In this document: positions 34,201-55,200 of the stretch, one piece after another
Position numbering within the stretch: position 1 is the first letter of the stretch
How the letters are laid out: every line of letters starts with the position of its first letter
Origin: Haliclystus octoradiatus
Lineage: Eukaryota > Cnidaria > Staurozoa > Stauromedusae > Haliclystidae
Direction of reading: 5' to 3'
DNA: 64,000 nt
Assembly: GCA_916610825.1 (NCBI GenBank)
Contig: OU744450.1
Span: forward strand, 11,401,380-11,465,379
Notes under the pieces: model-generated
What the model was told of the DNA's origin: nothing
What the model saw: the letters and a program-made list of their open reading frames with translations, nothing else
The model's database searches: none
Translations under genes and position numbers: made by a program

Positions 34201-37200
34201 AACCCAAACAATGTCAGCTGCACAAATACTTCCTATTCCCTGGGAATATCAATGCAACAATTCTGAAAGGAATGCTGAAAGGAATGCTGAAACTCGCAAA
34301 AAATAGAAAAAGTTTGTTCAATTACATCGAGATCAATTGGAACCAACAAATACTTTACATTTATGCTCAGCGCACTTTCTGTCGATTTGCTGCACCAGAA
34401 GGCAAGATATCAACATTTTTAGTGATACAGAAGGAATTTCTATGGCAAAATATTTGGCCAGAACAGCAATGCCAACTGTAGACAAACCGTTATTTGACTT
34501 TGATGCTGCTACTCACAAAAATTGACACGAAGGTTAAATTTGAGAAGGCGTATTTCAGAGCAGAAAAATATTACCGGTAACCGTCTGACAAAAAAGATAT
34601 TACAGCATCATATACTTTCAGTCTATTGCAATGAATTACTGTCATTTGCAAGGACAAAATCCACCAAAGTCATCCTTACTACAAGCAATTTCATCTCTAA
34701 AACGTAATAAGAAGATCATCGAAACGAAGCCAGATAAGGGAAACGGTATTGTAATTCTTAACAAAGATTATTATGATAAATTAAATTATAGGATAAATTT
34801 AAATTTGTAGACCCAAATAAAAATCGTAGAGGGAGACTTGCAAAACATCCCAATCCGCTCTATTATATAGAGAGAATGGTTAGTAAGTGTATAGTAAAGG
34901 AATTTTACCAGAAACTTTAACAACAAAAGACTAGCACATTTATATGGCCTACAGAAAATCCAGTATTATCTGCAGTAAGATCATACAACTTTTTTCTAAC
35001 AAAATGGCTGGATGAAAAACTAAAACCTTTTGCTACTAATAATTTCACTGTATCAGACCTTATGGCTTCTTTCGATGTGAGCGTTTACCAATGCCCCATT
35101 ACTGGAAAGATTTGAAATTCCACTTACAGACGCTACTTCTAACAATTGGTTTAACCAAAAGTATTCCTTAAATGTAAATGCCTGGTGATCTAAGTAATTT
35201 ATTGTTGATCAGTACTAAGGCTCAATTTGCTTATTTCTGGACAAGCTTGTTATCGTAATTGTTTTAATGCGAGAATTATCAAAGAGATGAAACACGTCTG
35301 TTTACTAGCTGTGTTTATTTTGAACTCCTAACATTTACAAACGTCATAGTGTTGGCTAACACTTGACAGGATTGATTATAACATGATAGTGTGATTCGAT
35401 AAGTACCTGCACGGTATCATGACATCTCCCTTTTTTCATGGGTAGACAAAACAATAAAACTATTTTAATAACTTTTTTAACAATAATCAATTCTGTATAA
35501 TTTAATATCAAATAATCCAAATACGCTGATATAACATTAATAAAACTTCTGTAACAATAAGAATGAATATAATGTTTTAACTTTAAGAATGTCAGTAAAA
35601 CTTATTAGTTATTAATTATGACCACATTTTTTTAAGCGGTACAATAAGTCAACCACTTCGTGTTGTTTTTTCGTTGTTATCATTTGTGCGTTCGTTAACA
35701 TCTATATCTTTTCCTACAGTAGGTGGTAATGGTTCATCATCAATTTGATAATCATCATAATTGTCATCATCATCATCAGCGGTTGGAATTAATAATAGGT
35801 GACGACGATTTCGCACTAATCCTGAACCCTTGGTAGTTTTTACAACATATCTCCTTATACTGGGCTCTGCTTTTATGATCTGCCATCACGATATTGTAAT
35901 GACACTGCAAGTATGTATTAGATTGCGACGAAGTCGAAATATTTGCATGTGAAATTTATAATAATTTACCAATCAGTCAGCCAAGACTTAATAGTATTCA
36001 TCACGCTGCAAAAAGTGATGTCATATTACAACAAGTGAAGTCTAATGTGTTGAACGGCTGGCCAAAATCAAGTCAGCTCATAACAGAAGTAAAACGCTTT
36101 AAAGAAGCAAAGAACAATTTAAGTGTTATACATATCGGCTTTTAATAGATCCGATATCGGTGATAATTTTGTCGCAAGATCAGGTATAAATTTACCTAAA
36201 TAATTTACCATACCAATAATGGTTCTCAATTCAGCTATATTAGTGGGTGCACATAAATTTTTTATTGATTTTATGCGTTCTGGATTTGCTTTAATTCCAT
36301 CTTTCGAAATAATGTGGCCAAAATACTTTACTTCATTACATGAGAATTGACATTATTCTCGGTTTAGTTTTAAATCTGACTCTTTTATCCTCTTTAATAC
36401 CTTCTGTAATCGTTCATCGTGTTCTGCCTTCGTTTCCCCATAAACAAGGATGTCGTCCATATCACTGCACAGCCAGATAAATCTTCAAGTAAAATAATAA
36501 GTTGAAATATTTAGGGTGCCGACGTTATTCCCATTGGAATCCTTTCAAAACAATATCTGCCAAACGGCGTATTTAAGGTTGTTAATTTACAGCTCAATTC
36601 CAATGGAATTTGATAATATCCCCCAGCTGCGTCTAAAGCAGAAAACCAGGTAGATCCTATTAAATCAGGTGCAATGCCCTCAAGATTTGGTAACATAAAA
36701 TTTTCTCTTTTAATTGATGCATTCAACTTCTTAAAATCTACACAGATTCGTATGGCCCTGTTTTTCTTGACTACGGGTACCATTGGTGCACCCCAGTCTG
36801 TTGGCTCTGTTACTTGTCTAATAATGTCATGCTTCTGCATACGCTGTAACTCTGTCTTAACTTTATCTCTTATCGGAAATGGTACACGACGCGGAGTTGA
36901 CAGACAATACTGTTCAGCTGGTGACTGTATTGTGATTTTAACTGGTGTAGTTTTCATCTGTCCGTGTGTATCAAACACAGAGGCGAATTCATCTTGTACC
37001 TCGCTAACTCTAGCTATGAGACCAAGTCCCAAGCAAATTTTTCGGCTTAAGAAATTCCCTTTTGCATGCTTTGCTACAAATATAACAACATCGGAAGATT
37101 TTTGATTATATGAAACCTCAGTATTAAATTTCCCAATGCATTTCATTTCCCCTCCAGGTGATATTAACTTTTGCCGTACATCTAATAATCTTGGTAATGG

Positions 37201-40200
37201 TGACAAACTCTTAAAAACATTTTCAGAGATGACAGTAACATCCGCACCAGTGTCGATTTTAAATGTGACCTCTGTATTTACAATCTTGATGGAAACTAAC
37301 CACAGATCATTATCTTTATCGTTATGAATGTTGTCCAGATTAAAATCCCCGTCATCTGCCTCGTCAGTGCTATCAGTATATGCGTCTTGTTCTATCGCCT
37401 GGACTGATTTTGAGAGGTAAAATTTACTGTGATGACCATTTTTATGGCATTTGTGGCATTCTTTGCCATAAGCAGGACATTTGTTTTTCATGTGTCTTGT
37501 GCCACAGCGGCCACAATTATTCACGTTGCTTCCCTTCTGTTCTGATTTGTCCCTAGCTCGACTTTTATATTGTTGGTACTTTCTCTTAGAAATGGCTTCA
37601 ACGTCTACATTGGTAGTGTTGTCTTGTTTCTTCATTTGTGATTTCACCATTTCTGTTTGGCGAGCAATGTCAATCGCTTTCTCTAGGGTGAGGTCAGTCG
37701 TTAGCTGTAGTTTTGTCTCACCTGGCGGTCTTTTAGTCCGATTACTAGGCGATCACGTATCTGCTCGTTTATGTTGATATAGTGGCAATGCTGTGACAAC
37801 AGCCTTAATTGTCTGATATACTCTTCAACGGTTTTCCCTTGTGATTGTGTCTTCTCTTGGAATACCGCCCTTTTGTGGATAATAGTCCTCTTAGGAATAA
37901 AGTAGTTGGTGAATTGGTTTGTCAAACCTTCGTAATATTCATCAGGATTTTTCTCCTTATCCACCGCACTTTTTCCACTTGTTGAGGGTAAAGTTTGGTC
38001 CCACGTGAAAGTTTTCATTATTCTGGCTCCCTCTTTACTGCCCATGCAGTATAATAGAGCATCCCTTTGACCTTCGCCATCTTCTTTATTCAACTTCGTT
38101 GCTCGTCTGAACCTGTTGAATTTGTCAAGCCAGTCTTCCCACTCTTCTGGTCGGAAGCTAAACTTATTGGGTTGATTGTATCTTGCCATAGTATTATTAT
38201 AATTATTGACAGAAAATCTAAACCACATCTGACACCATGTTTTAAAGCGAAAATTATCAAAGAGATGAAACACGTCTGTTTACTAACTGTGTTTATTTTG
38301 AACTCCTAACATTTACAAACGTCATAGTGTGGGCTAACACTTGACAGGATTAATTATGACATGATAGTGTGATTCGATAGGTACCTGCACGATATCATGA
38401 CAGTAATGGGTTATGGGATACATGTGACGAGCGGTTTTACACTTTAATACAATCTTCACTAAGTTTTCTGTTATGGTTGCTTAGTGAAGATTTAATCATG
38501 AAAGAGTTTCTACAAAATATATGTATGACATCAGTTGTTAGTAAATTTCAATATGCTCAAAGACAAAGAGAGAAGGATATAAGTTTTATATAGAAGGATA
38601 TATTCCTTTCGCGGACCTACTCTTCTCCGAAACAGGAACTGAATGTTTCATAAATGGCATTTGAGAAATTCACCAAAGGGAATTGTCAATATCTTGCTGG
38701 GGTAGATGACCAATGTTCCTATGTTATTGGTCTTATTTACCGAGCTAGAACATATTCAACGCTGCAACATGAAAGAGCTACCTTCAGACAACTCTTGTAC
38801 TTCAAGACCAATGCAATGGCTCGAGCCCTGGACAAGAAGTGTAAAGCCTATGAAGCTGAGTGATATGGAGTTCTCAAAATAAAAAAAGACAATACTTTGT
38901 TATCAGTAGTCAAATTAGCCTTTTACAAGGCTTCTCCTGAAGACGTCAACGATACTGTTATTCTCTAAGGACTAAACATTGGACTTGAGGCTATTCCGGA
39001 TAGTATTCCAAGTTGCACAATGGTAACTTTAACGAACAGACAGATGGAGTAGCTATGTTGATGATACCTTGGCAATTGTGGATAACGAAATACAGCACAT
39101 CTGCCAATACACTTTATGATTGAATTAGAAGACAAAAACAACTACAGTTTCTTGGAATCACACTAACCAGTATCACCACAGAAATATTCATTTCATGATT
39201 CAGCAATGACTTTCTTTCCTTTTGTGTAGGTGTCAATTATGTTTCAACAAGCCATCAACGCTTTAACGTTTATGGCACATGCCAATAAAAAACTCTGCAA
39301 AAGACGTAGAGAACCAATGAAGCCAGGCGTGGAAACAGAATTCCAACATTTATGTTCAGCAGATGTCAAATCAACTACCAAACTGTTTGGTGATGACTTG
39401 GCTAAACAGGTTAAAAATTTGACGGAACTTAAAATAAAGTTAGTAAAAAGGTTAAAAGTAATGTGTAAACCAGAAGGACGGGACAGCTACCGCCTTGTAG
39501 CCGCATCATTCACGCCTACCATCGGGGCACAAGAAAGGGAATAGTTATCCAAAAAAGACATGGATTCCAAGGTACATACTGCAGGACGTTTAAAATATTA
39601 CTCATCTGAATGGGACACTATAACATCGGATATTTTCATTCTAAATAGCATATTGAATTTATTGATGAACACTCACACCAAACGGAAGTGCAGAACATCT
39701 GCTTGTTTTTAATTGCTGAACACACTGCTATCAACACAGAAGTGTCTAGATTGCTTGATAAGGGGGTGATAACTCCAGCCACCACCACCACAACAACAAC
39801 AGCAACAACAACCAGCAGCAGCAGTAGCGGGACCATCACAAACCATCCACCAGCATCTACAATTAACCAAACCCTGTACAATTGAAACTATCTATAATCT
39901 TCAACCAGTACTACAAAATATGTTCCAGCTCATCATCGTACTTCTGAATGTGATATCTTAGGTAGATTTACCAGAGGTATTCTCTTTCAAAACCACAGAG
40001 CTGAGAGTTCCAAGAATGGACCAGGAGGACTTCAAGGCAATCAAACATACACTAACAAAAACAATCGATTACACACTCCAACTAAATTATTAACATCACC
40101 ACAACATAATAGCTTGAATTGTATCTATAATAACCTATTGAAATGCTTTATCATTACATCACCAAGCCAAACCTACAAACTGTCTGAATATCTCATGGCT

Positions 40201-43200
40201 GCCTCTATTCTAAAACCTAACCTTATCAATCTTACTGAAACAATTTTCAATCTCAAAGTCTCACTTCAACTTACTTCAGTTGTCCTTCTTGACCTACAAT
40301 TGTCCCACTAGTCTATCATAAACAAAAACGGACAATTAATTACACCTATCGCTCATCTTGCAATACATTAGAAAATTCATTAAAACAACTAGATTCTCTC
40401 ACTGAAACCTGGCTTTCTGAAAGCCACAAACACAAACAAAATGATAAAAATCACCACATTTTACAAGAAATTCTTAGGCTAAAAACACAACACAAACTTA
40501 TTTCAAACCTGCCGACAAAGGGGCATTGGTTGTGATGCAACGTGAAAAGTACATAGAAAAGATCTATGCACATCTACATGATAACACAACCTATCACCCT
40601 CTCGGTTCTGCGGACCCAATTGAACGTTTTAAGAACTCGATAAAAACTTTTTAAAACAACTACACAAACAAAATTTTATTGACACAACCACACAGGAGTC
40701 ATTAAATCCACCAGATTAACCTAGAATATAAATACTCTACCACAGTAATAACATAATTACGATTTCTGATATTTGATGGCTATTCTGATTAATGACCACT
40801 GAGCACCTGCTACTAGCACACTATGCTCCTCCTATCGATGAAGCAAAGTTCCAGCTACATTCATTTTTACTGATCTACTTATATATAAAACTTCAATTTT
40901 ATAAAAACACACACTGCATTTAATTGCCATCTACGGCCGACACACATACACATTTGCATTGACTGAGGCTTTCCGTAGGGGTGGTACCTTACCACTTTGT
41001 CTCTTTTGACAGGGGCTCTCCCCCTGTGTGACTAAAGGGGTCCACTAATCCCTTATTGTTTGATATAACCAGTCATATCAACAAAACAGTCAGCATTGAT
41101 AATGAATACATTTCTCGTGTTTCTGTCCGGTCAAAAAAAATGGCAACAAGGCAACTAAAAATTAATATTGAATTTGAAAACTCAATGAAAGTGTAGAATA
41201 TCATAATTTTAAGATGGATATTTTACATTCCGCGGTATGCTTGATGAAACAAAATTGTTTTATGGCGCCAGTGTATTAACAGGATCCATATTATGATCAA
41301 TACCAATTCATTCTTCTCACCAACAATATTTGAAATTTAGTTGGGATAAAAACTTAATCCATATACATGATTACTTTTGGCTTATCAAGCAGTCCTTCTT
41401 TGTATTCTACCTTTAGAAATCATGGACATTTAAATGTAGGTTATATTGAATATTGATGATTCATACTTACAAAGTCAGGCACCAAGCAAGAATGTTGTTT
41501 AACAAAATGGATCTCATATAAGAACGTCCTTGATTTTAATCCCCAAGAAGATTGGGCAAAAAGTGTTTTAAATTTATGTTGAGATGAAAGTTTAACTGAG
41601 CAAGCTTTGGGTGTAGGTTGGAAGGTGTTATCCGATGAGCTTTGCTTTATTGTAAAATCTTAGACAAGCCAAAAACAAAGCGTAGTGTTTTAGCCACGGT
41701 CAGTCCACATTTAACAATGCTTTAACCATACTTTCAACAATGTAATTGTTCAAAATTGTCAGCAGATAGCTGTTACCCAAAACAACCAAGAAACAATTGT
41801 CTATGCTTGACTCCACACTACCTTTTGTTGAAAATTTGAACAAAATTTACACAATAATTTTCCTGTTTCTTAGTTGTGTGAATAACATTTCTACAAAAAC
41901 ACTGATCAAAATTATTTGTGCTTGAAAAGTTAAAAATCTTTCCCGTAAAAAAATAAATTTATGTAAATGCTTATGGTACCGTGTCTCAATTTTTCCAAAA
42001 TTAAACCTTGTTGCCTAGAAAAGCTTAAAAGTAAAAAAAACTTCAGAAAACTCCATTGACTTGTTCATCCTACAACAAAATGGCCGCCGTGGAGACATCT
42101 GCCACCAAAGAAAAGTCATGTGGTTAGCGCTTTAGTACTTTGTGACGTAGTCACTTAATTAAAGTAATTATAAAGTGCCCACATACATGCTGGGTTTATT
42201 GTGTAATGTAAACAGTCTTAATATCTTGTAACTATATTGTAAAGTATGCTGAAATATAATCACTTCTATTCAGACAAAATGCAAGCGTGTTCTCTGTTTA
42301 GAACGACACAACAAATTGGCGTCCCCGGGTGGGCCTGAACCACCAACCTTTCGATTAACAGTCGAATGAAAATCTATCTGATCCAGAACGCACAGAAGCT
42401 TGGTTTACAGCATTTTCAGCCAAAGCTAGAACGAAGTCACTTAAAGATGACCCTACCAATCAACACTACCCTATTACGGATCTATTTCTATCACTATGTG
42501 GCGAAGAGGCCCTTATCAAATTAACAAGACTGGTTAGACCATTAAAATTGGCTAATATGCCTTATGTAGCTATTGAAAAGAAAGCAATGGAATTGGTAGA
42601 GCCCAAACAAAGCCTTATCATTGCCGAACGAACGAATTTTCTGGCGATAAAAAAAAGGCCGGACGAATCAGCGGACGAACTCCATATTCGCATCAATCAT
42701 GCCGCGGATAAATGTGACTTTGACAAATTTAAAACTGAACAAGATCCAAATAAAGAAATGAAAAAGATGGTCTTCATAAACTCATTTGACGACAGTAAGC
42801 TTCGTAAAGACCTGATAGATTATATTCGTCTAACTCCAATTGCAACATACGAAGATCTTCGTGAACGTGTACGGCAATATAGCCAAACAACAGCCTTTGT
42901 AAATCGAAATATCACAATACAACCAACACAACCTACCGAAATACCTCTCACTCAATATGCCGTACACAGCACAAAGTCTGTCCAAGAAACGCAACGTGAA
43001 TGTGGTAATTGTGGCTCACGTCATCCACCAAGACGATGCCCAGCATACGGAAAAAATTGTTCAGCATGTGGAATCAGAGGACATTTTAGTGCCGTTTGTC
43101 GTTCCGCTGGTAAGTCACAAAATCGTAATAACTCAATATCCAATTATTCAAATCGCACTAATTCAAATTCAAAACAAAACAATCACACCAATTATGCTAT

Positions 43201-46200
43201 TGAATCTTCTCTCGAGCCGACAATAACATCGAATACAATGGAATCTAATAGTTATTATTTATTGAATATTGATGAAAATAAACCAGAAGATATAAATAGT
43301 ATGACCGAAATCATGGAAGATGTAAAATTGAATAATATTACTGTTCCTATGCAACATGACACGGGTGCATCATGTACCATTATATCATCAGCCATATGGC
43401 AAAAACTTGGGAATCCTGATCTTTCTGCATCAACCAGAAAGCTACACTCGTACGACGACCGTGGACTTTCATTGATAGGCGAACTGAACGCAACTGTTCA
43501 GCGCAATAATCAAACTAATTATATTACAATGCCTATTCAAGTTGTACAATCCGCACGCCCTTATGGCTTGCTAGGTAGAGATATTTTAAATACAAATAAT
43601 GTTAATTATTCTTGTAGCAATTCTTCTGCAGATTTTCTACCTGTCATCAAGGATGTCGTGGCTACCATGAAACTAAAACCAAACGCATCCCCAAAATTTT
43701 GTCATGCTCGCCCTGTGCCTTTACCATTACAAGATGCTGCTACCGCTGAACTAGAGCGCTTACAGTCCATGGGTGTCATCGAACCCATTGAGTCAGGTGG
43801 GACCGAAAACTCTTCCCCTATTGTTTGGGTCAAAAAACCCTCTGGAGGCTTACGAATGTGCGTTGATTTTAGCGTACACGTAAACGATAAAATTTTGAGC
43901 GATGCTTATCCGATTCCCAACTTAGAGGGGATTTTCAGCAAAATACACGGTGCAAAATTCTTTGCTAAAATTGATCTAAAATCGGCCTATTGGCAAATTG
44001 CTATTGATAAGGCTGCGCAAGATATCTCTGTGATTAACACGCACAAGGGTCTGTTTCGAATCACGCGACTACAAATGGGAATGAAAAACAGCGCTGCGAT
44101 TTTTCAAAATGTCATTGAAACAGTTCTCAGCGGTCTGAAGGGAATCATTCCTTACCAAGATGACGTGCTAATTTTCGGAAACACCCGCGATTCTTTGCAA
44201 AAACGTGTCAATGCTGTGATGGAGCGTTTCAACCAGCGACGTCTATCTGTTAACAAAGAAAAATGCGTGCAAGACGTGACAGAGATTTCGTTCTTAGGTT
44301 TTCGCATCTCGGCTGACGGTATCGGACCTGACCCCCGTCTTGTTGAAAAAGTTTTGTCTCTTGCACCTCCCGAAAACAAAAAGGAGGTAGCATCTTTTGT
44401 AGGGTTAGTCAATTTTTTTGGCAGACTGGTACCTAATTTTGCAGACAAAATTGCTCCTTTAAATGATCTTAGAAAACAAGACATAGATTTTGTTTGGACG
44501 AACGCTGCTCAATTAGCTTTCGACAACCTGAAAAAGGAGTTGGCCTCCACCCCTCTTGTGCAACCTTATTCTTTAAATAAAGCAGTCACCCTGACAACCG
44601 ATGCATCTGGGACTGCTGTTGCCGGTATTTTAACACAAGACGGGCATCCTATTATTTACGTTTCTAAAACATTAAGTCCCGCAGAACGAAAATATTCTGC
44701 CACTGAACGCGAAGGACTAGCTGTCGTATGGTGTGTGGAACGTCTACGTCAATTTTTATTGGGTCGCAAATTTACAATCGTCTCCGACCATCAAGCCCTT
44801 TCTTACATTTTTGATACTAATAAATCAGTCCCTAAAACTGCATCCGCACGGATTTGTAGATGGGCAATCAAATTGATGGCCTTCGATTTTGAACTAAAAT
44901 ATGAGCCTGGTGCAAACATCACCCATGCTGATGCTTTATCTCGTCTGACACACAGTACCATTACGCGGGAAGACGTAGTTGCTAGTGTCTCTATTGCTAC
45001 TGACTCAGCATTTTTTGCACCAATTATTCCAAGTCAAATAATTGAGGCTTCCACCTCCAACGATCGTCTTGCACAAAGCATCATCAAACGCATTATTTCT
45101 GGTTCTTGGTCCGGACTTTCAGAGGCAGAAAAGGCCTTTGCACGTGTCAAAGATGAACTTACTGTTCACAATAACATGATCTATTTTAAATCAGCCCCTT
45201 TTATTCCAATTGATTTGAGGTCTTCAGTACTAAAAAAGGCTCACAACACACATGCCGGCATTCATGCTACCCGACGGCTTTTACTTCAGGGTGCTTGGTG
45301 GCCAGGTATTTTCAAAGACGTTGAATCTTTCATTACAAATTGTTCTACGTGTTGCGCGTTACGCCCTCGGTTTTCAAAAACAGTCCATACATGGCCTCAA
45401 GCAGCACCTTGGGAGCGTGTACACATGGATTTTGCGCATATTTCGGATATCGGGCCTATTTTGATCGTTGCAGATGCTGGCAGTGGCTGGATTGAGGCTA
45501 CCAGATGCCCCAATCTAGCCACACACACTGTTGTCCGCATTTTAGCTGACATATTTTCTCGTTTTGGTATCCCATATAGTTTTGTTTCGGATAATGCAAA
45601 AGAGTTCATAAATGAAGAGATTGTACAGTGGCTTGCACGTTCAGGCTGCAAGAAAATTGAATCCCCTATTTATTTTCCACGTGCCAATGGTCTTGCAGAG
45701 CGCGCTGTTCAGACGGTAAAACGCGGAATGAAGGCGTGGCATAAGGGCTTGCGTGTATCGTTTGATATGTTCCTTTATCGTATTTTAACTGTTCATCATG
45801 CCACATCCTTGACCAGGGGGAAATCTCCAGCAGAAATACTGTTAGGTAGAAATATAAGAGTCCCGTTTATAGCTGAATTTGCAACGGGAGATGTAGTAAT
45901 GTACCAGCCATCTATAGCACACACGCCTAAGGAAGTCGAGTATATCCTTCCAAAAGGAAGCAATACAGCATGGCTATCAGACAATGGAAATACTGTTCTT
46001 GCCTCTAGAAACCAATTCGGACCATCTGGTTCGTCATCAAACAATGAGTCTACTGAATCCAGAACAATAGTTAGTGAGTCCACGGATTCACTATCCCAGT
46101 TACGACGTTCTTCTAGAATTACTGCACGCCCGGATCGTTTAGGATTTGAATAAATTTATTTTATAAAATCATAATTCTCGCTTATAGCAAATACTGCACA

Positions 46201-49200
46201 TTTATTTAATCTATTATTATCTCTTAAAATGTAACCATATATAATTAAACTTTAATGAACATAATTTGATAACTACATTCTCTCTAAGAAGGGGGATATG
46301 TGACGTAGTCACTTAATTAAAGTAATTATAAAGTGCCCACATACATGCTGGGTTTATTGTGTAATGTAAACAGTCTTAATATCTTGTAACTATATTGTAA
46401 AGTATGCTGAAATATAATCACTTCTATTCAGACAAAATGCAAGCGTGTTCTCTGTTTAGAACGACACAACATACTTATACCTCTATGGGAAGAATGGCAG
46501 AATGGACTGGCTGAAATTGAAAATATTTCAGTTTCTCACTGCTACAAGTCCAATATAGCAGTTGATAGTATTTGCAACATCCAACTTCATATTTTTATGA
46601 TACTTCTAAAACTTCTTTTGGTGTTGTTGCTTACTTACCTTATGAAAGTTTTAATCAAATTTATTGCAATTTTTTTCTCTTTGCGAACACCAAGAAAGAA
46701 CTAAATACATACAATTCTATGTCAAGGGATTACAGTTTTCTGGATACCAACAAAAAGAAAGAGTATTAATCTACAAACATGCAAAAAAAAATACGAACAG
46801 ATCGTAAAGAATGATTTATCTAGGAAGTGTCCCATGCATAGAGGGAAGTTTTGGGACAGAAAAGAAAGGGAACAAAAACGAAAAGAAAAGAAAAGCTAAA
46901 AACATGGTTTGTGAAAGGTGGTTATGAAATGTTATTGTTTGTAGACACTACACCTGGGAACAAACTTGCAAATGGGTGTAGAAATGTATATAAGCAAGCA
47001 GAATTAAAAATTGAATAAGTCGAAAGAGCACGTAACCTGTTAAAAGATCACCAAACAAAATCCGACCTTCTTAAACTCATTTCATGCATAGTTTATAGAG
47101 ACACCTGGTTAGGAAAGCTGCCAGCTATAACAATAAGGCTATTGTCTGATGTTGTAAATGTATCACGTGACGAGGAACCTTCGTCAAATTTTCACTTCTT
47201 CTTCGTTGCAATTTCAAAATGGCTGTGTGTTTCAACGCTGAAGACAGTTCCAATTGTGACGAATACTTATCTAATTCAGACTCTTTAAATATTTCTGAAT
47301 TTGTTTTGGATAATGAAGACTTCTCATTTGATGTTAGTTTTATTTCTGATGAAGAGGTAAATGAATTAATCGGTCAAGCAAATGCCAATGCAACGAATGT
47401 GGTAAAGATTTTAAATCTAGTACTGGTTTAAAAATTCACGCGTCCAGGATGCACAAGACTGACTCCCAATAAGCTTTAAATACGCAATGTGTGTCAAAAG
47501 ATGATATCGATAACATTATTTCCAGCATAAAAAGAAAGATAAACGACGAAGGAATATTTCCAAATTCAATTTTAGAACAACTGCCATCTTCTGTTCCTGC
47601 TGATCTGACAGTAGCACTTTGCAAACTTTTACAGACATATTCTGTTAATGGAAAACTAGATTCCTGGTATAAAAATTTTGGTAAAATTCTTAGCAAATCT
47701 GCCACATATTTATCCTGACACGAAAGTAGAGATTGTCAATCTTCTGCTTACTAGACTGGCACCAGAACTGATCTCGTTTGTCAAAAATACATCGAAGGTG
47801 GTTGATAACAAAGTTGTTAAAAATATCAAAGAAGAGGAACAGGGTCCAATGTCATATATTTTGGGATCTGCTCTTTGCAAGATATATAAGAAGACAGTTT
47901 TTGGCAAGGCAGGTGCACATCAGTGGCAGAGTCAAATCGCTAGCCTGTTTTTGAATACTTTAAGAGCACCCATGGATGATAACACTTATCTTCAATCGTT
48001 AGACCGTGGTGGCTTGTGGAATCCAGCTCCAAAATTATTAGCAATCATTGAAAACGTAGAAATATATTTTCGTGCAGAGGTAAGCAGAAGAGAGAATCTA
48101 AAACGTATTCCTATCGACAATCTTTTGCACCATTGCTTGCAACAAGATGAAATTATTTCTGTTTGGAAATCATTGTTAAATGATCATGAAGGCGTAGAGG
48201 TAGATAAGGAATGTGGGAAGGTATGCATCGAAAATATTATCAAACTTTACCTTCGAATTCGTAGCTTCTCTCATGTAAAAGATTTATTCAAAAGCTTTCA
48301 AGTTCAACAACATTTGAGTAAACGTCAAAATGCCCTTAGGAAATCACTTGCAAAGGATGATTAAATTATATTAAGATTATCAAAAAAATTATACATTTTC
48401 TGTTCAAGCTCTAACAAAAGTTATCACATTATCATATCCCTTATTTGTATCTACGCCTTGTCACTGTGTGTTCATTTAACTTATAATGCTAATGAGTTCC
48501 AAACAGAAATAATTCCATCTTGTTGCAAGAAATGGTATCAAAAGATCATCAATTAGGAATATGTTTTATTTTCTCTCCTTTGTTTAGCATGTGCTACCGT
48601 GGTGTAATGCAGGGCTTCGGACCTTTGCCTATGGGGTATTGGGTTCAATACCTGTCAGGAGCACTATCGGTTAGCCTCAGAAAGGCCTTTGGCCATAATA
48701 CGCACACACGCTTCAAAAACTAACAGATCCTAACCAACCATCCCGATGAAAAAAACTGCTAGCTTACATGGCTTGTGGATAAATGATAAATAAAAAAAAG
48801 CATTCAACTTTGTACCTGTAACATTATTCAAAATAGTAAACCCTTACCTCTAAACGCACTTTGTGATAACATATTATGCAATATTAAATAGTTGACTTTG
48901 ACCGCCATTGAGCCAGGACAAATATAATTGAATGTATTGTACGATAACGTATTATGCAATATTGACCGTATGTAAAGGTCACCCGTCTATACTAAACATA
49001 ACATAAGTTTTCTATATGGTTATGGGATATTTATAAACCCTCTCTATGTAGGCCACCTGTCTATACAGACCAATTTAGCAATTTGTGTTGAAAGAGAAAG
49101 TTATAAAGAGCACTTGAGCCATCTGGACTGTGTGGAGATGTTAAATTTAAGACTGTAGATGATAGACTGATAGAGTATTTAACGTAAAAATCTCTTTATT

Positions 49201-52200
49201 ATGTACATATAAAACAAAACGTAATAGTCAAAAAGGTATTAAACTAAATATTTCTAATAGAAATAAAATGTTCAATTACTTAATAAAACTTTATGGACAA
49301 GGTCAATTTTTTTTTTGCTACAGGAGCATCAGATACTTCACTCCATTTCGATACATGTTTTCCTCGCGCATTACCTAGGGGTGTAATTGTCCTCTGCATA
49401 TTAATTGTTTGATCATTATAGCCAAACTGTTGCGCAGAGGGATTATCTGACCTTCTGCCATGGCTTCGCTGATATCCAAAATATTCCTCTAAAACGTCCT
49501 GCATTAATTTCTCTGTCAAAACATACTCAAAGCCATAATTTAGCAAATATTTGATGATCTCTATAGTCGAGTTGACAGTAATTTGGTAGCCTTCGAATGT
49601 CTGCCTTGAAATAAACATACCTGCCATCTGATCTTTGTTGAACTTTCCCTCTCGTTCACTAATGCATTTTTTCCACTCTATAAAATAGTTTAAAAATGTT
49701 TCTTTCATCCATACTAGTCGCTCGTCTGTAGGTGATTTAAAAGGTGCCATGTTAGGCTTTTTCCTTCTAGTGTGCTCATTTGTCGAGCGAACATTACACA
49801 TATCAAAAAAATCATTAACTAAAGTACAAAGGTTAGCTGTTTGATCTGCCTCACCATTGTCAAAATAATGTTTAAGGCCAATGACATACTCTTACTAAGA
49901 ACTTGTGTTGCATATGAAACCCTCATTTTCCCATATGAGGTGAGGTGAATGTGGTCAGGCATAATTTTATAAAGTCGATGGAGACTGTTTTGATTGTCTA
50001 ATGTATATGATTTTGCAATATGGCTCCATATAATATTTTTACCATCATTCCACATCAGACGGGTGCTTTTCTCTGAGTAACCAGAGGAAAGCATGCAATT
50101 ACGCGTTGTTTCAATAAGATGTGGCACGTCAGAAAGGAAGTACAATTTCCGATCCGTAGCTGCTAGGTTAATTGAATAATAAATAACATCATCTTTTCCA
50201 AATTGATTATTTGAATTGCATTCTTTCAGGAATTTATGCATTTTGAAAAAAGTTCTGTTCTGAGATGCTCCATCGCAGAAAGCAAAAATAACTTTCAGAT
50301 CTAGAGATAATTCTAATGTAAATACGACTTGCCAAAACACTGGCCAAAGCTGGAACGAGGTTACTCCAGAGGAAACAGTTAAATGGTAGCTTATCACAGC
50401 CTTCAACTTTGTACATAAACCTCTGACCATAAACACTAGAGCATGAGTGGCTAGATCATTGAAGTTTTCAAATGAGGCGAAATCAAGGGTGGGATCTCCC
50501 AGGTCTACATATCCGATTATTTCGCCAGAGTGCTTGTCAAATACAAGACCACTGCTTATTTTCATTTCGTGAAACAAGATACCAACACATTTCTGAGTAA
50601 CTGAGTATTTATCAGTTAATGATTTCAGTCTTTCAACATTACCTTTCACAATTCCTGGACGACCTTTGAAAGTATGCCTATAATTTCGCAAGCATCTCTG
50701 ACTTGGTAGAAATAACACCTCTGACAGTTCGTCATACGCTGATGAACTTTTGGCTTGTAAGGACAAGCAGAATCTAATAAATTGCGGATGGTATCGTCTA
50801 CCCTTGTTCGACTTAGAGCTTAGTAATTGCTGCTGTTCCCACAAAAGTTTCATGTGGGGAGACATATTCAGGTCAGTGTTCCCAATAATTGTTGTTAAAT
50901 CGCTTTGAAGCTCCTGATTGATTAACATTCCATGTTTCTCAATCTCAGTTCTGAGCTTCTCGAGTTCAGTTTTCATTAAAGCACACTCCAGTCTACCCGC
51001 TTTGATGGTTGCCACTAATTTATCTTTGCTACATACAGACAGTGGTGCTTTATTTTTTGCTGGGGTGGGTGTGGTACATGCCCCTTTGCTAGTCATGGTA
51101 ACAAAGTTAGTTATCACAATATTACATTGAAAACACTTTTTGTCTTCATTATTTGGCAACAAAATTTGGCAATTTAAACTTCTGTTGACATTCAAAGATT
51201 GAAAAGGAACATTATTATCATATTGAATTGGATTTACAGGTACACAATGTATTATTGTACCAGGGATTGTCACACTATTGTCAAATACTATACCATCACA
51301 AATAGCACATGTGCTCAGGTAGGTTAGGATGCGTTTAACAGGAGATTGATTGATATCTATTTTATCAATTATTGGGATAAGCCATCCGTAGTAAAATACT
51401 TTAGTAGAAAGATCATTGTAAATAAATATGTTGAATTTTGGTGAGACTTTTTTTGTGTCATGATGAACCAGATTAACATACGTATCGTAAATAATAGAAA
51501 CAAAACATTCAAGGTCCATATTTCGAATACTTTTTATTAAGGTTTGAAATGAATGATACTGAGTAGGTGGTGGTAATGGTACCCTCTCTAATACTCTCCT
51601 TGCAACTGTTGTTTCATTATTACCAGTATCATGTGGCCTGTCGTGTGATTTTGATGGCAAATTTCTACATGGAACGCTACCGGTCCTAAGAGTTTTTCTT
51701 GAAGTGAATTGATCGACATCATTAGGATCGAAATGTATTTCACATAAATGAAACGAATTTTCGTCAAACTGACGTTGTAAATCATGATCCACAACACGTG
51801 TTCTTTTGACAACATCAATCCACGCTTCTCTGGCAGTTTCTTAAGCTCAGCAGTGAATTCGCTATCCCTTTTCCTAATGACTGGAATTTGAAATATAGAA
51901 ATTTTCTTATCATTAACAGAATCTTTAACACCAGTATGATTATAGCAACCATAAAAACCACAATTATCTCCTGGCATTATTATAGAAATACAAAAGTTAA
52001 GTTACTGAATTTGCTCATGACTACTCTGCGATTACGAAGGGATAAGAATTTTCCCGCGCATTTCCATGAAGGTTCGTCATCACGTGATCATAAACCTCCT
52101 ACACAATAACACCTAATCGAGGAAACAATAGCTTTCCTAACCAGGTGTCTCTATAAACTATGTTTCATGTGACAGTAAGCAATGCTGCTTATGCAGAAAG

Positions 52201-55200
52201 ACTTATTTAAAAATAGAATGCAAAACAAGAGACGTTGTATACAAGATAAGTTGTAGCCAGGATGTTGTTGTTGAATTTGGCGTATGCATGTTTTGGCAAT
52301 TTGTTCTTGTGCTCATTTAGTAGGTACTGACTTGATGGTATTCGAAGGAACATCTTCCCATGTAGCTACGAAATTGCATTTTGTTGAGAGGATCTGCAAT
52401 ACTTCATTTTTTTCCGGTTGGCTCAATTCCTCTCTCAGCAGTGAGTTTAATTTCTGGAGGTTTTGATCGCCAGTGCTTCTTACCTATTATTAGATGCAAA
52501 GAAATGGTCGCTATTTTCATATGGATGTAGTGCTGTCGACAGGATAGAATTGTTATTTTTTATTGTTGATAATGTTTCAATTTTACATTGTTATTGTTGT
52601 TGTGTTATAATATCTTTTGTTTAAAAATTACTGTATAATGAAGCAGGCGTTATGCAAGTGATTATTTGTTTGATATAAAAATTACTTGATGTGTCAAAGC
52701 AAATATGTTGAAATACATGAAAATATGCATTCCTGTCCAAAGTAGATGTCCAGATACTGGCGGTAGCTGGTGCTGATCTCCAGTAGCAATGATGTAGATG
52801 CCACCAAAAGGGTTGCTGTTGTTGCGCACATTTTGTAGTATGAGGTTGATTGTTGTCATCAATTCACAGGAAAGAAGACCAATTTCCTCAAAAAATAAAA
52901 CGTCTAATTTTTGTAAAGCATACATTTGAGCAGGTTTGTTCATCAGTCTGTTAATTGCCAATTTTGCCAGTTTTGTTGCAGTTTGGCAATTTGAATCTAA
53001 AACAGGGATCGAAAAGAGTAGATGTACATGTTCTCCTCCAAGCTGCCGTGCTCTGGCTGCCGTTGTTGATGCCAGCTGAATTGTCAGGCCTTTGGAAAGG
53101 CAAAAAGTCATCAAAGTTTTGAGAAGTCTTGTTTTTCCTGCACCAGTTGGTCCAACAATGACTTGTGATTTAACAAACCGCATGTGTTGCTGAATTGTTA
53201 AATGGGCATCTAACAAACTGATTGACCTGTAGAGCAAGGTAATGCAAAGTATGTGTTTGAAGTTTAAGGAAAGAAATGATTGAGTAATTAAATGTAACCC
53301 AGGAGTGGGTGAGTTTTCACAAAACGAGATTCCTTTGCATTCGAACAACATTTATTTTTGGAGTGACTTGAAAACTACTCTTGCATACATTTTGAATGAC
53401 AAAAGGAGATTTAAACCATGTGTTGCAAATAAAGTAGCAGAGATCAGGGAGCTCACAAAAACTGATCAGTGGAAATTTGTGCAACAAAATGAGAATCCTG
53501 CCGATGTTGCTTCCAGAGGGTTAATTTCAACACAATTTTTGGACTGTTCAAATAGACCAAAGATCGTCAATTTCTTTGAGGGAATGAAATCTGCTGGCCA
53601 TCCTTGCAAACTGAAAATGTGCCCAAAGAAGAGTAAGAAGACAGGAAATCTGAAGTTGTTGCTGCTCTGACCAAGTCCAATTCGTTTTTAGATTTCCTTT
53701 TAGAATGTTGTTCTTCTTTTTACAAAATGACAAGAACCGTTGCACACATTACAATTTGCATCACCTCGCAGAGGAGAACTTACTCTTTCTTTGTTAGAAA
53801 AGGCGGAACTTGTTATTATATGCAGGCTCAGGCATTTAAAAATCAAGTTGAAAGTCTTCTTCGCAAAGTTTTCTCAATGATAAATGGATTTAATTCATCC
53901 TGTCTAAAAAAATTGTATCACATTGAATATGGATAACACTTTGAATAGAGAAGTCAGAAGTGTGAAGACAACACTGTGATGTATTTCAAGTAAGTCTGTC
54001 CTGTTTGTGACCGACTGTCAAGAAAGTCTTGTTTAATTATTGAATTCTACTACCACATGATCAATCACCCGCTAAAATTCACTTCTTTGAATCATGAATT
54101 GAGATTTTCATTTTAGAACGTTCTATTCGACGGTGCAGATAGCTGGACAATCACACAAAAAGATCTACAGTCAGCTCAACATTTAAATACATAGATAACA
54201 TTCAACCAGGGTCAGATAAATATAAAATGTTTCCCTTCCAGGGTTCTGCTTACAAATTTTTTTGTCTTGATTACATTATGCAAACAGTTTTACAGTTTTT
54301 ATTTAGAGGTTATTGTTCATTTATTGTCATAAAATGTTATAAAAATTGCACCTAATTATATAGATCTTCCACGGAAAAGAAAGGAAAATCTTTCTTCAGG
54401 TTTTAAAAACTTGAATATAGCTATTTTTCTGAATTTGTAATAGCCTTTTAGATAGTTAGGTATGTATGTATGTAATTAAATCAACTATTTATCATTATTC
54501 CTATTACCTACCTGCATCGGCTGCATCATTGATTTGATCCTTATATTCTTCTTCTTCAGGGTCGTACAACGCCTGGCTGTCATAACTATAACCAACTGTA
54601 TCGTAGTTTGATGATGTAAGACTTGATAGTTTGATAAATCGTTGTTGCTGCTCAGCTGCAGAAAATAACAACAAATCTCACAATCAATTATCAGTTTATT
54701 TTCTTCTTTTTTTATTATATATTGCTGTTTGTTTATTATGCAAAATCAGACAAATCATCAAAAACTGTTATTATAAATGCATGTCTCTTAACAGCATTAT
54801 TAGTCTATATTTAAACTTAAAAACATAAATTATCTTCTTGAATAAAGTTTGAGGCAGTTCAAAGCAGATGTGGTACATTTTGTATTTATCTAGTATATAT
54901 TTCAACAGGCAAAACAAAATGCTTTTAGCAGATAGATTGGGATTCTTCGAAAATCTTTGGGTAGGTAATTTCAAAAAAATATCAAATTCTAAAGATTTCA
55001 TTCCTCCTCTAAGGATTTAATGAAAACAACATTGTAGAGACGACAATAAAATAGGGAGGACGAGAAAAATAAAGTTTAAAATGGCATCTCAATGCTGAGA
55101 GCTGAATAGAAGTCTTGAAGTCTTATAGTTATTTTTACATTCAACTAGATCATAAAGACTGCTAAAAAAATCAATGTATTATCCTTGATATTTCCTTGGA

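Follow-up and report, generated by a model that had tools for sequence, protein, structure and literature searches.

The window analysed here is a 64,000-nt stretch of the Haliclystus octoradiatus genome (assembly GCA_916610825.1, contig OU744450.1, positions 11,401,380–11,465,379, forward strand). Within it lies a P-type element of 5,076 bp (47087–52162) that holds a transposase gene and a second, convergent gene, hereafter the partner gene (Table 1). The perfect 33-bp terminal inverted repeats (TIRs) and the direct TTTCATG heptamer on both flanks, reported in a first-pass annotation of the sequence, were borne out. Both genes have decayed, and this copy is a relic.

Table 1. Features of the P-type element and its flanks, in window positions.
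Feature	Position	Strand	Basis
Left target-site duplication TTTCATG	47080..47086	.	Sequence
Left 33-bp TIR	47087..47119	+	Perfect against right TIR
Partner, first piece with acidic N-terminus; frame lost thereafter	47219..47431	+	Comparison with C8 copy L010
Partner, C2H2 finger CNECGKDFKSSTGLKIHASRMH; another frame, stop next	47389..47454	+	Translation; same finger in L010
Partner, helical piece, finger-to-CTD interval	47491..47718	+	ORF list, comparison
Partner, C-terminal open piece, 228 aa, CTD homology	47678..48364	+	CTD profile match ~47972–48292, E 1.1e-5
Space separating the two convergent genes	48365..49279	.	ORF list
Transposase, C-terminal ORF: C-part of RNase H with QDVLEEYFG, then 69 residues to stop; no CTD	49280..49801	-	Pfam, copy comparison
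Transposase, main ORF: second part of THAP region, HTH (weak), N-part of RNase H, GTP-binding insertion	49819..51792	-	ORF list, Pfam
Transposase, first ORF: start of THAP domain, frame-broken	51588..51977	-	THAP matched in relatives, not in this ORF
Right 33-bp TIR	52130..52162	-	Perfect against left TIR
Right target-site duplication TTTCATG	52163..52169	.	Sequence

The minus-strand gene, previously read as a THAP transposase, does encode a P-type transposase, spread over three open reading frames (ORFs), but a frame change breaks its THAP domain, which therefore gave no match in the window ORF. Pfam models matched the N-part of RNase H (TNP-like_RNaseH_N, 1.6e-21) and the GTP-binding insertion (GBD, 6.3e-10), with RNaseH_C just under its cut-off (7.5e-5). 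As in the P superfamily, RNase H with the GTP-binding insertion also occurs in related subfamilies B, C and D, each with an N-terminal THAP domain (3e-10, 5e-6 and 1.3e-7, respectively). The P-type HTH model (PF12017) reached 19.5 bits in the window against a cut-off of 23 and had no match in D; a one-gene copy scored 85.2 bits. The first catalytic motif is FHEMK in the window versus FDEMK in B and C. Transposase genes in this genome contain introns; in one copy (L041), for example, the THAP exon is separate.

On the plus strand, the proposed separate gene of about 350 codons (47219–48364) holds as a second coding region facing the transposase, but here stops break it up into three ORF pieces that use two frames. 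The C2H2 finger and the large helical domain are both present, with the same finger in L010; in the window copy the finger lies in another frame from the first piece and is followed by a stop. An intact relative has 378 codons, and the open frame spans 344–411 aa in intact copies. Among 17 loci scanned, 8 had the complete finger pattern (C-x2-C-x12-H-x4-H); the final His is missing in L043, and the other eight, many of them broken or partly fetched, gave no match. Finger spacing is conserved across several subfamilies, and the subfamily C finger scored 22.3 bits with PF00096 (cut-off, 25.2).

Co-occurrence of the two genes in the host genome

Of the 65 loci that carry the partner gene in the host genome, 38 lie no more than 5 kb from a P transposase. 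Every one of these 38 pairs is convergent, where chance would give about 0.2, and a convergent partner accompanies 38 of the 52 transposase loci, unlike the single-gene arrangement of classical P elements. No partner gene was found near any of 16 one-gene loci. Direct checks brought in three further transposase loci (L084, L086 and L087) and a further partner locus (L122). The proximity and TIR check proposed in the first-pass annotation, run here in the host genome, thus recovered 38 pairs, with TIRs around the pair wherever both ends were read, but also 27 of 65 partner loci without a transposase within 5 kb, most of them fragments, and one subfamily A copy (C5:17.74 Mb) that has an inverted end and neither partner nor transposase C-terminus. 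Intact partner ORFs are all paired with a transposase; three E-group partner copies have none in 3.2–3.4 kb of downstream sequence.

All 14 two-gene insertions with both ends read lie inside TIRs flanked by 7-bp target-site duplications (TSDs), as opposed to the 8 bp of the classical one-gene P element; one-gene copies in the same genome have an 8-bp TSD in two cases. TIRs are close to the 30 bp typical of the P superfamily: 33 bp and perfect in subfamily A, 32 bp in C, with a few differences in B. Two further subfamily A copies share the TIRs of the window copy, each with a 7-bp duplication of its own (GTTGTAC and CTCATAT). Divergence of the two genes is correlated (r = 0.91, nine loci). These comparisons, drawn throughout from one genome, strongly support a P-type family that carries two genes together inside its TIRs, as the first-pass annotation had suggested, rather than a chance insertion.

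From substitution rates, purifying selection appears clearly in one resolvable pair only. Between L020 and L049, dN was 0.21 and dS about 1.0. The contrast was weaker in A_win–A_C8 (dN and dS 0.010/0.030), C6_10.3–C1_20 (0.018/0.040), D–C6_13 (0.058/0.087 and 0.089/0.177) and L020–L022 (0.082/0.098); between A and B, dN was 0.41 and dS was saturated.

Identity of the partner's helical domain

Profile comparison identifies the helical domain of the partner as the P-transposase C-terminal domain (CTD). Searching 684 ORFs with a CTD profile built from 114 one-gene animal transposases gave 22 hits, all in partner ORFs and none in a transposase ORF, with subfamily B alone under the threshold. Alignment of the partner domain with the CTD by hhalign gave 97.5% (controls, ≤0.25%), and the CTD motifs YIxGYV, RGGLW, ExxF, Y-x-VR and LRK occur in order up to the basic tail. 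Conversely, the transposases of all four subfamilies examined (A, B, C and D) lack a CTD: the partner profile found none in transposase ORFs, and only 63–70 residues follow the catalytic Glu in this lineage, compared with 264 in the genome's one-gene copies. This identity, the missing transposase CTD, replaces the less specific guess of an accessory, regulatory or self-limiting factor.

The Pfam CTD model (PF12596) scored nowhere above its cut-off in the host genome. A profile search of the PDB with A1 reached the solved Drosophila CTD (6p5a_B) at E 0.013, too weak alone and superseded by the CTD comparison; 6p5a_B was not among the best 60 of 126 matches listed for A2, nor among the 2 for A3. 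Foldseek against the PDB with the partner gave nothing at E ≤ 0.001, and 6p5a_B was not among the best 50 matches listed. A single-sequence structure prediction of the partner (pLDDT 41) was set aside. The partner protein had no match at E ≤ 0.001 among 5.8 billion proteins, so the multicopy uncharacterised invertebrate proteins mentioned in the first-pass annotation were not recovered; a one-gene transposase used as a control query gave 697 matches in the same database, in which many animal P transposases are present. Given that the search requires shared 5-residue words and a length of 0.55–1.75 times the query, distant partners elsewhere are still possible. Contig scans found no relatives in viral_contigs or genome_contigs, which are viral and prokaryotic collections and hence carry little weight.

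A transposase probably divided between two genes

As read from the DNA, the two genes travel together inside TIRs and diverge together, the partner contains the CTD and the catalytic protein lacks it. Given that the last transposase domain lies in a separate gene facing the opposite way, the enzyme probably functions as a pair of proteins rather than a single one. Very likely, this is a lineage of the P superfamily whose transposase is encoded in two parts by convergent genes. The catalytic subunit, with its THAP finger, HTH region and RNase H with the GTP-binding insertion, would come from one gene. The other would encode a separate subunit in which an acidic N-terminus and a single C2H2 finger precede the helical CTD, a domain that ordinary P/THAP9 transposases carry as the tail of their one polypeptide. 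The two proteins would most likely meet at the transposon ends, where the CTD subunit would occupy the site that the tethered CTD has in the Drosophila P enzyme, with RNase H on one side and another subunit's GTP-binding domain on the other, a position in which it would touch both transposon and target DNA. We infer this assembly in trans, a requirement for both proteins and a role of the finger, which would help to deliver the CTD subunit to DNA. With moderate confidence, we favour an obligate two-subunit enzyme in which the strand-transfer (C-terminal) domain would be supplied in trans from the C2H2-fused convergent gene, transposition would depend on both proteins and the freed subunit would accompany a shift in strand-transfer spacing from 8 to 7 bp. 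The transposase tree is unrooted and gives no direction between split and fused forms.

The partner could instead have a regulatory role, as a free CTD that restrains transposition by competing for a site on the transpososome or the TIRs, alongside a catalytic protein that is active CTD-free. A free enzyme domain could be such a competitor, the 66-kDa truncated protein of Drosophila P is a repressor, and the three E-group partner copies have no transposase downstream. In the covered part of one account, Drosophila P yields this truncated protein beside its transposase (PMC7776569). We nevertheless consider a regulator unlikely: with the CTD missing from the transposases of all four subfamilies, nothing is left for a detached CTD to compete with, and the partner co-diverges with the transposase and is always paired with it when intact. 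Still less probable is a captured CTD fold, reused in a C2H2 DNA-binding or targeting protein that has lost the original CTD contacts. The acidic N-terminus, the finger with its preserved spacing, about 140 profile positions ahead of the CTD match that have no counterpart in one-gene proteins and a TSD length unlike that of one-gene copies would fit such a protein, but the ordered motifs through to the basic tail speak for the original contacts.

Landing of an unrelated gene or another transposon in one P copy, which the decayed window copy by itself could not exclude, is refuted by the convergent order of all pairs across divergent subfamilies, the exact TIR borders with separate TSDs in 14 copies and co-divergence, and has a negligible probability. 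Equally improbable is an annotation artefact in which splicing joins RNase H to the CTD and the plus-strand reading is spurious. Transposase genes do contain introns, but ordinary splicing is ruled against because the genes lie on opposite strands; the partner also has its own finger and a long open frame in intact copies, and faces the transposase in every pair.

Relation to known elements

P elements, a founding eukaryotic cut-and-paste transposon, are structurally solved and have been described as carrying a single gene for one multidomain transposase. A lineage with this enzyme spread over two genes would offer a direct test of which steps need the CTD and whether it can act in trans, and one-gene and two-gene copies in one genome form a natural comparison for what sets target-duplication length. 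Here a eukaryotic transposase would have become multi-subunit by moving its own domain to a second gene, with no foreign protein recruited. The partner gene would escape annotation aimed at one transposase ORF, given that the Pfam CTD model finds nothing above its cut-off in this genome. We found no two-gene split P transposase in the literature searched.

RAG2L, the second protein of RAG-like transposons, is a separate Kelch/PHD protein and not a transposase domain. According to the covered parts of the sources, these RAG1L–RAG2L elements of animal genomes likewise have a convergent gene pair bounded by TIRs (PMC7204232) but belong to another transposase family, and KolobokP and KolobokD are animal DNA transposons that encode a further protein in addition to their DDD/E transposase, although their partners are nucleases rather than a domain split off the transposase, and the superfamily differs (PMC9587614). 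Drosophila P and animal THAP9-type elements share THAP, RNase H with the GTP-binding insertion, a related CTD, TIRs of about 30 bp and cut-and-paste anatomy (PMC7776569), whereas here the CTD is encoded apart, in the convergent gene that also carries a C2H2 finger. The TSD is 8 bp in Drosophila P and Pdre2 (PMC7776569, PMC10983969) and in Anopheles P, versus 7 bp in the two-gene copies. A 7-bp TSD is not an exclusive mark of the split lineage, and was rejected as its hallmark, because Galileo of Drosophila, also of the P superfamily, has one; the covered part of that account mentions no second gene, and Galileo differs in its consensus TSD (GTAGTAC) and very long TIRs (PMC2775673).

Pairing and joint movement of the two genes

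The P-type element in the window (subfamily A of the two-gene lineage) carries its transposase in three ORFs on the minus strand and, facing it on the plus strand, the partner gene in three ORF pieces. Its first catalytic motif reads FHEMK, versus FDEMK in subfamilies B and C. This copy is a relic, and we therefore examined the pairing across its own genome (262 Mb, 33 contigs), the one genome searched. Partner searches and one DNA match gave 65 partner loci after merging, and a search with a single transposase query gave 52 transposase loci. A transposase lay within 5 kb of 38 of the 65 partner loci, convergent in all 38 pairs, where about 0.18 such pairings are expected by chance. The pairing is real, and the suggestion of the first-pass annotation that this is a two-gene P-type family is strongly supported in this genome. 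Every full-length open partner ORF (seven in B, six in C and two in D) was paired. Identity matrices of partner and transposase were correlated (r = 0.95; 13 loci, 71 pairs; 0 of 5,000 permutations as high) and remained so when each close group was reduced to a single locus (r = 0.91 for 36 pairs among 9 loci; 1 of 5,000 permutations as high); the sequences of the two genes thus indicate a common history.

The two-gene element moves as a unit. The pair lies between terminal inverted repeats (TIRs), and target-site duplications (TSDs) of 7 bp were present at all 14 insertions read at both ends (three A, six B and five C; another three loci of B and one of C, not so read, stand outside this count). 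Partners of B and C are 53% and 26% identical to that of A, and their TIRs are similar in pattern. Over the DNA compared, B copies are 98.5–99.6% and C copies 99.1–99.9% identical to their own reference, with similarity beginning at most about 13 bp from the TIR, except in a single C copy, where it begins within the element.

P copies without a partner would count for the reading, raised in the same annotation, that the partner is a chance insertion, a reading refuted by the constant convergent order, the separate TSDs of 14 copies and the co-divergence. The partner is present at 38 of the 52 transposase loci, but such copies do occur: L091, of subfamily A, has lost its partner, and L085, with a complete transposase C terminus, has none in the 1.4 kb examined. 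These two are among ten inspected of the 14 loci unpaired in the 5-kb count. At the others, a profile detected a partner at L084 (a tail piece), L086 and L087, one transposase (C6:13.04 Mb) has a partner at a distance of 6.1 kb, and L042 has partner pieces belonging only to another, nested P copy; L083, L089 and L092, like L091, break off short of the transposase end. Four of the 27 partner loci lacking a transposase within 5 kb were examined over 3.2–3.4 kb downstream, where L122 has a convergent transposase and L119–L121 showed none. The group in which no transposase was detected over this span (L020, L022, L049 and L119–L121) could represent mobile copies that have been orphaned, or a partner retained for some other function; within it, the L020–L049 pair has a dN of 0.21 and a dS of about 1.0.

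The partner's helical domain and the transposase C terminus

The catalytic protein of the two-gene lineage is without the C-terminal domain (CTD) of P transposase, with 69 (A), 63 (B), 70 (C) and 68 (D) residues after the catalytic-Glu motif versus 264 in two intact one-gene copies. In the partner, Pfam named nothing beyond a weak C2H2 finger. One partner profile faintly matched the C-terminal chain of Drosophila P transposase in the PDB (E = 0.013); for two other partner alignments this chain was not among the PDB matches listed. The Pfam model Tnp_P_element_C, run against the genome, picked out three places, all short of its cut-off; the best lay in a partner gene and the second in a decayed one-gene P transposase, and we therefore examined the one-gene P family of the same genome.

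A profile of five partner sequences matched intact 816-residue one-gene transposases (E = 1.5e-10) over C-terminal residues 645–793, running in order through YIGGYV, DRGGLW, ExxF and Y-KVR. An independent CTD profile, built on 114 one-gene transposases out of 120 among the protein-search matches listed, gave 22 domain matches among 684 ORFs, all in partner ORFs (19 distinct places) and including the window partner (E = 1.1e-5); intact subfamily-B partners fell below threshold. The upstream-part profile gave 44 matches, 43 labelled transposase, one unlabelled and none labelled partner. With hhalign, partner against CTD reached 97.5% over 171 columns; the control pairings, of the partner with each of the three upstream thirds and of the transposase with the CTD, did not exceed 0.25%. 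By sequence, the partner's helical domain is the P-transposase CTD that the catalytic protein is missing.

Of seven tested loci matched by a one-gene query, six (L070, L074, L077, L078, L080 and L081; E = 1e-12 to 0.013) had CTD similarity downstream of RNase H and on its strand, and L079 had none; no partner gene occurred within 10 kb of the 16 loci so matched. One-gene loci formed one group (support 0.999) in an unrooted tree that covered 14 two-gene loci and 5 one-gene loci, after removal of three one-gene rows with too few columns. A P transposase divided over two genes appears undescribed in the literature searched: titles and abstract starts yielded no description of a two-gene or split P transposase, most subscription journals and Repbase lying outside the search.

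Target duplications and a proposed complex

Versus the 7-bp TSDs of the two-gene lineage, two one-gene copies in the same genome have 8-bp TSDs and a third has, by eye, 8 bp with one mismatch; a further two, each missing an end in the examined piece, stand outside the comparison. This difference agrees with a changed target grip, but Galileo, another element of the P superfamily, likewise has a 7-bp TSD (PMC2775673). According to PMC7776569, the Drosophila P CTD is wholly helical, is held on a flexible disordered linker, sits between RNase H and another subunit's GTP-binding domain, and contacts transposon and target DNA, with a basic helix aimed at the target. A domain on so loose a linker is a plausible candidate for detachment, and on this ground we propose that a catalytic subunit and a C2H2-CTD subunit would form a complex. 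The finger may bring the latter to the TIR or subterminal DNA.

Further features of the window and of single loci

Features of the window (window coordinates) and of single loci (contigs of the host genome, G000)
Feature	Position	Strand	Description
P-type element	47087-52162		5,076 bp; perfect 33-bp inverted ends; direct 7-bp flanks TTTCATG
Partner coding segment	48081-48174	+	about 95 bp; inverted repeat just downstream at 48491-48586, 84%
Hairpin	48081-48586		single long hairpin on folding; z -12.5, 0/100 shuffles as good
Long open frame	42548-46153	+	1,201 aa; by eye like Ty3/gypsy gag-pol polyprotein
Pieces of second element	36511-38273	-	by eye also Ty3/gypsy gag-pol-like
ORF adjoining P element	52662-53351	-	229 aa; by eye like mobile-element ATP-dependent helicase
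L042	C8:18526900-18532600		794-aa open transposase frame, two-gene lineage; adjoining its 3' end, seemingly nested, partner and transposase-end pieces of a different, B-like P copy
L066 partner	C6:17.53 Mb		seeming short first exon, acidic N-terminus, GTGAGT donor (by eye)
L020, L022, L049, L119-L121	C10:7720566, C6:22688383, C4:18879274		partners without detectable transposase in 3.2-3.4 kb downstream

The introns of the partner seem not to be alike in all subfamilies: at L066 there seems, by eye, to be a short first exon, and in B the gene is a single long frame. The partner-derived inverted repeat is confined to subfamily A, where the C8 copy also has it, and was absent from tested B, C, D and F loci. 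Transcription through the hairpin could yield double-stranded RNA against the partner gene.
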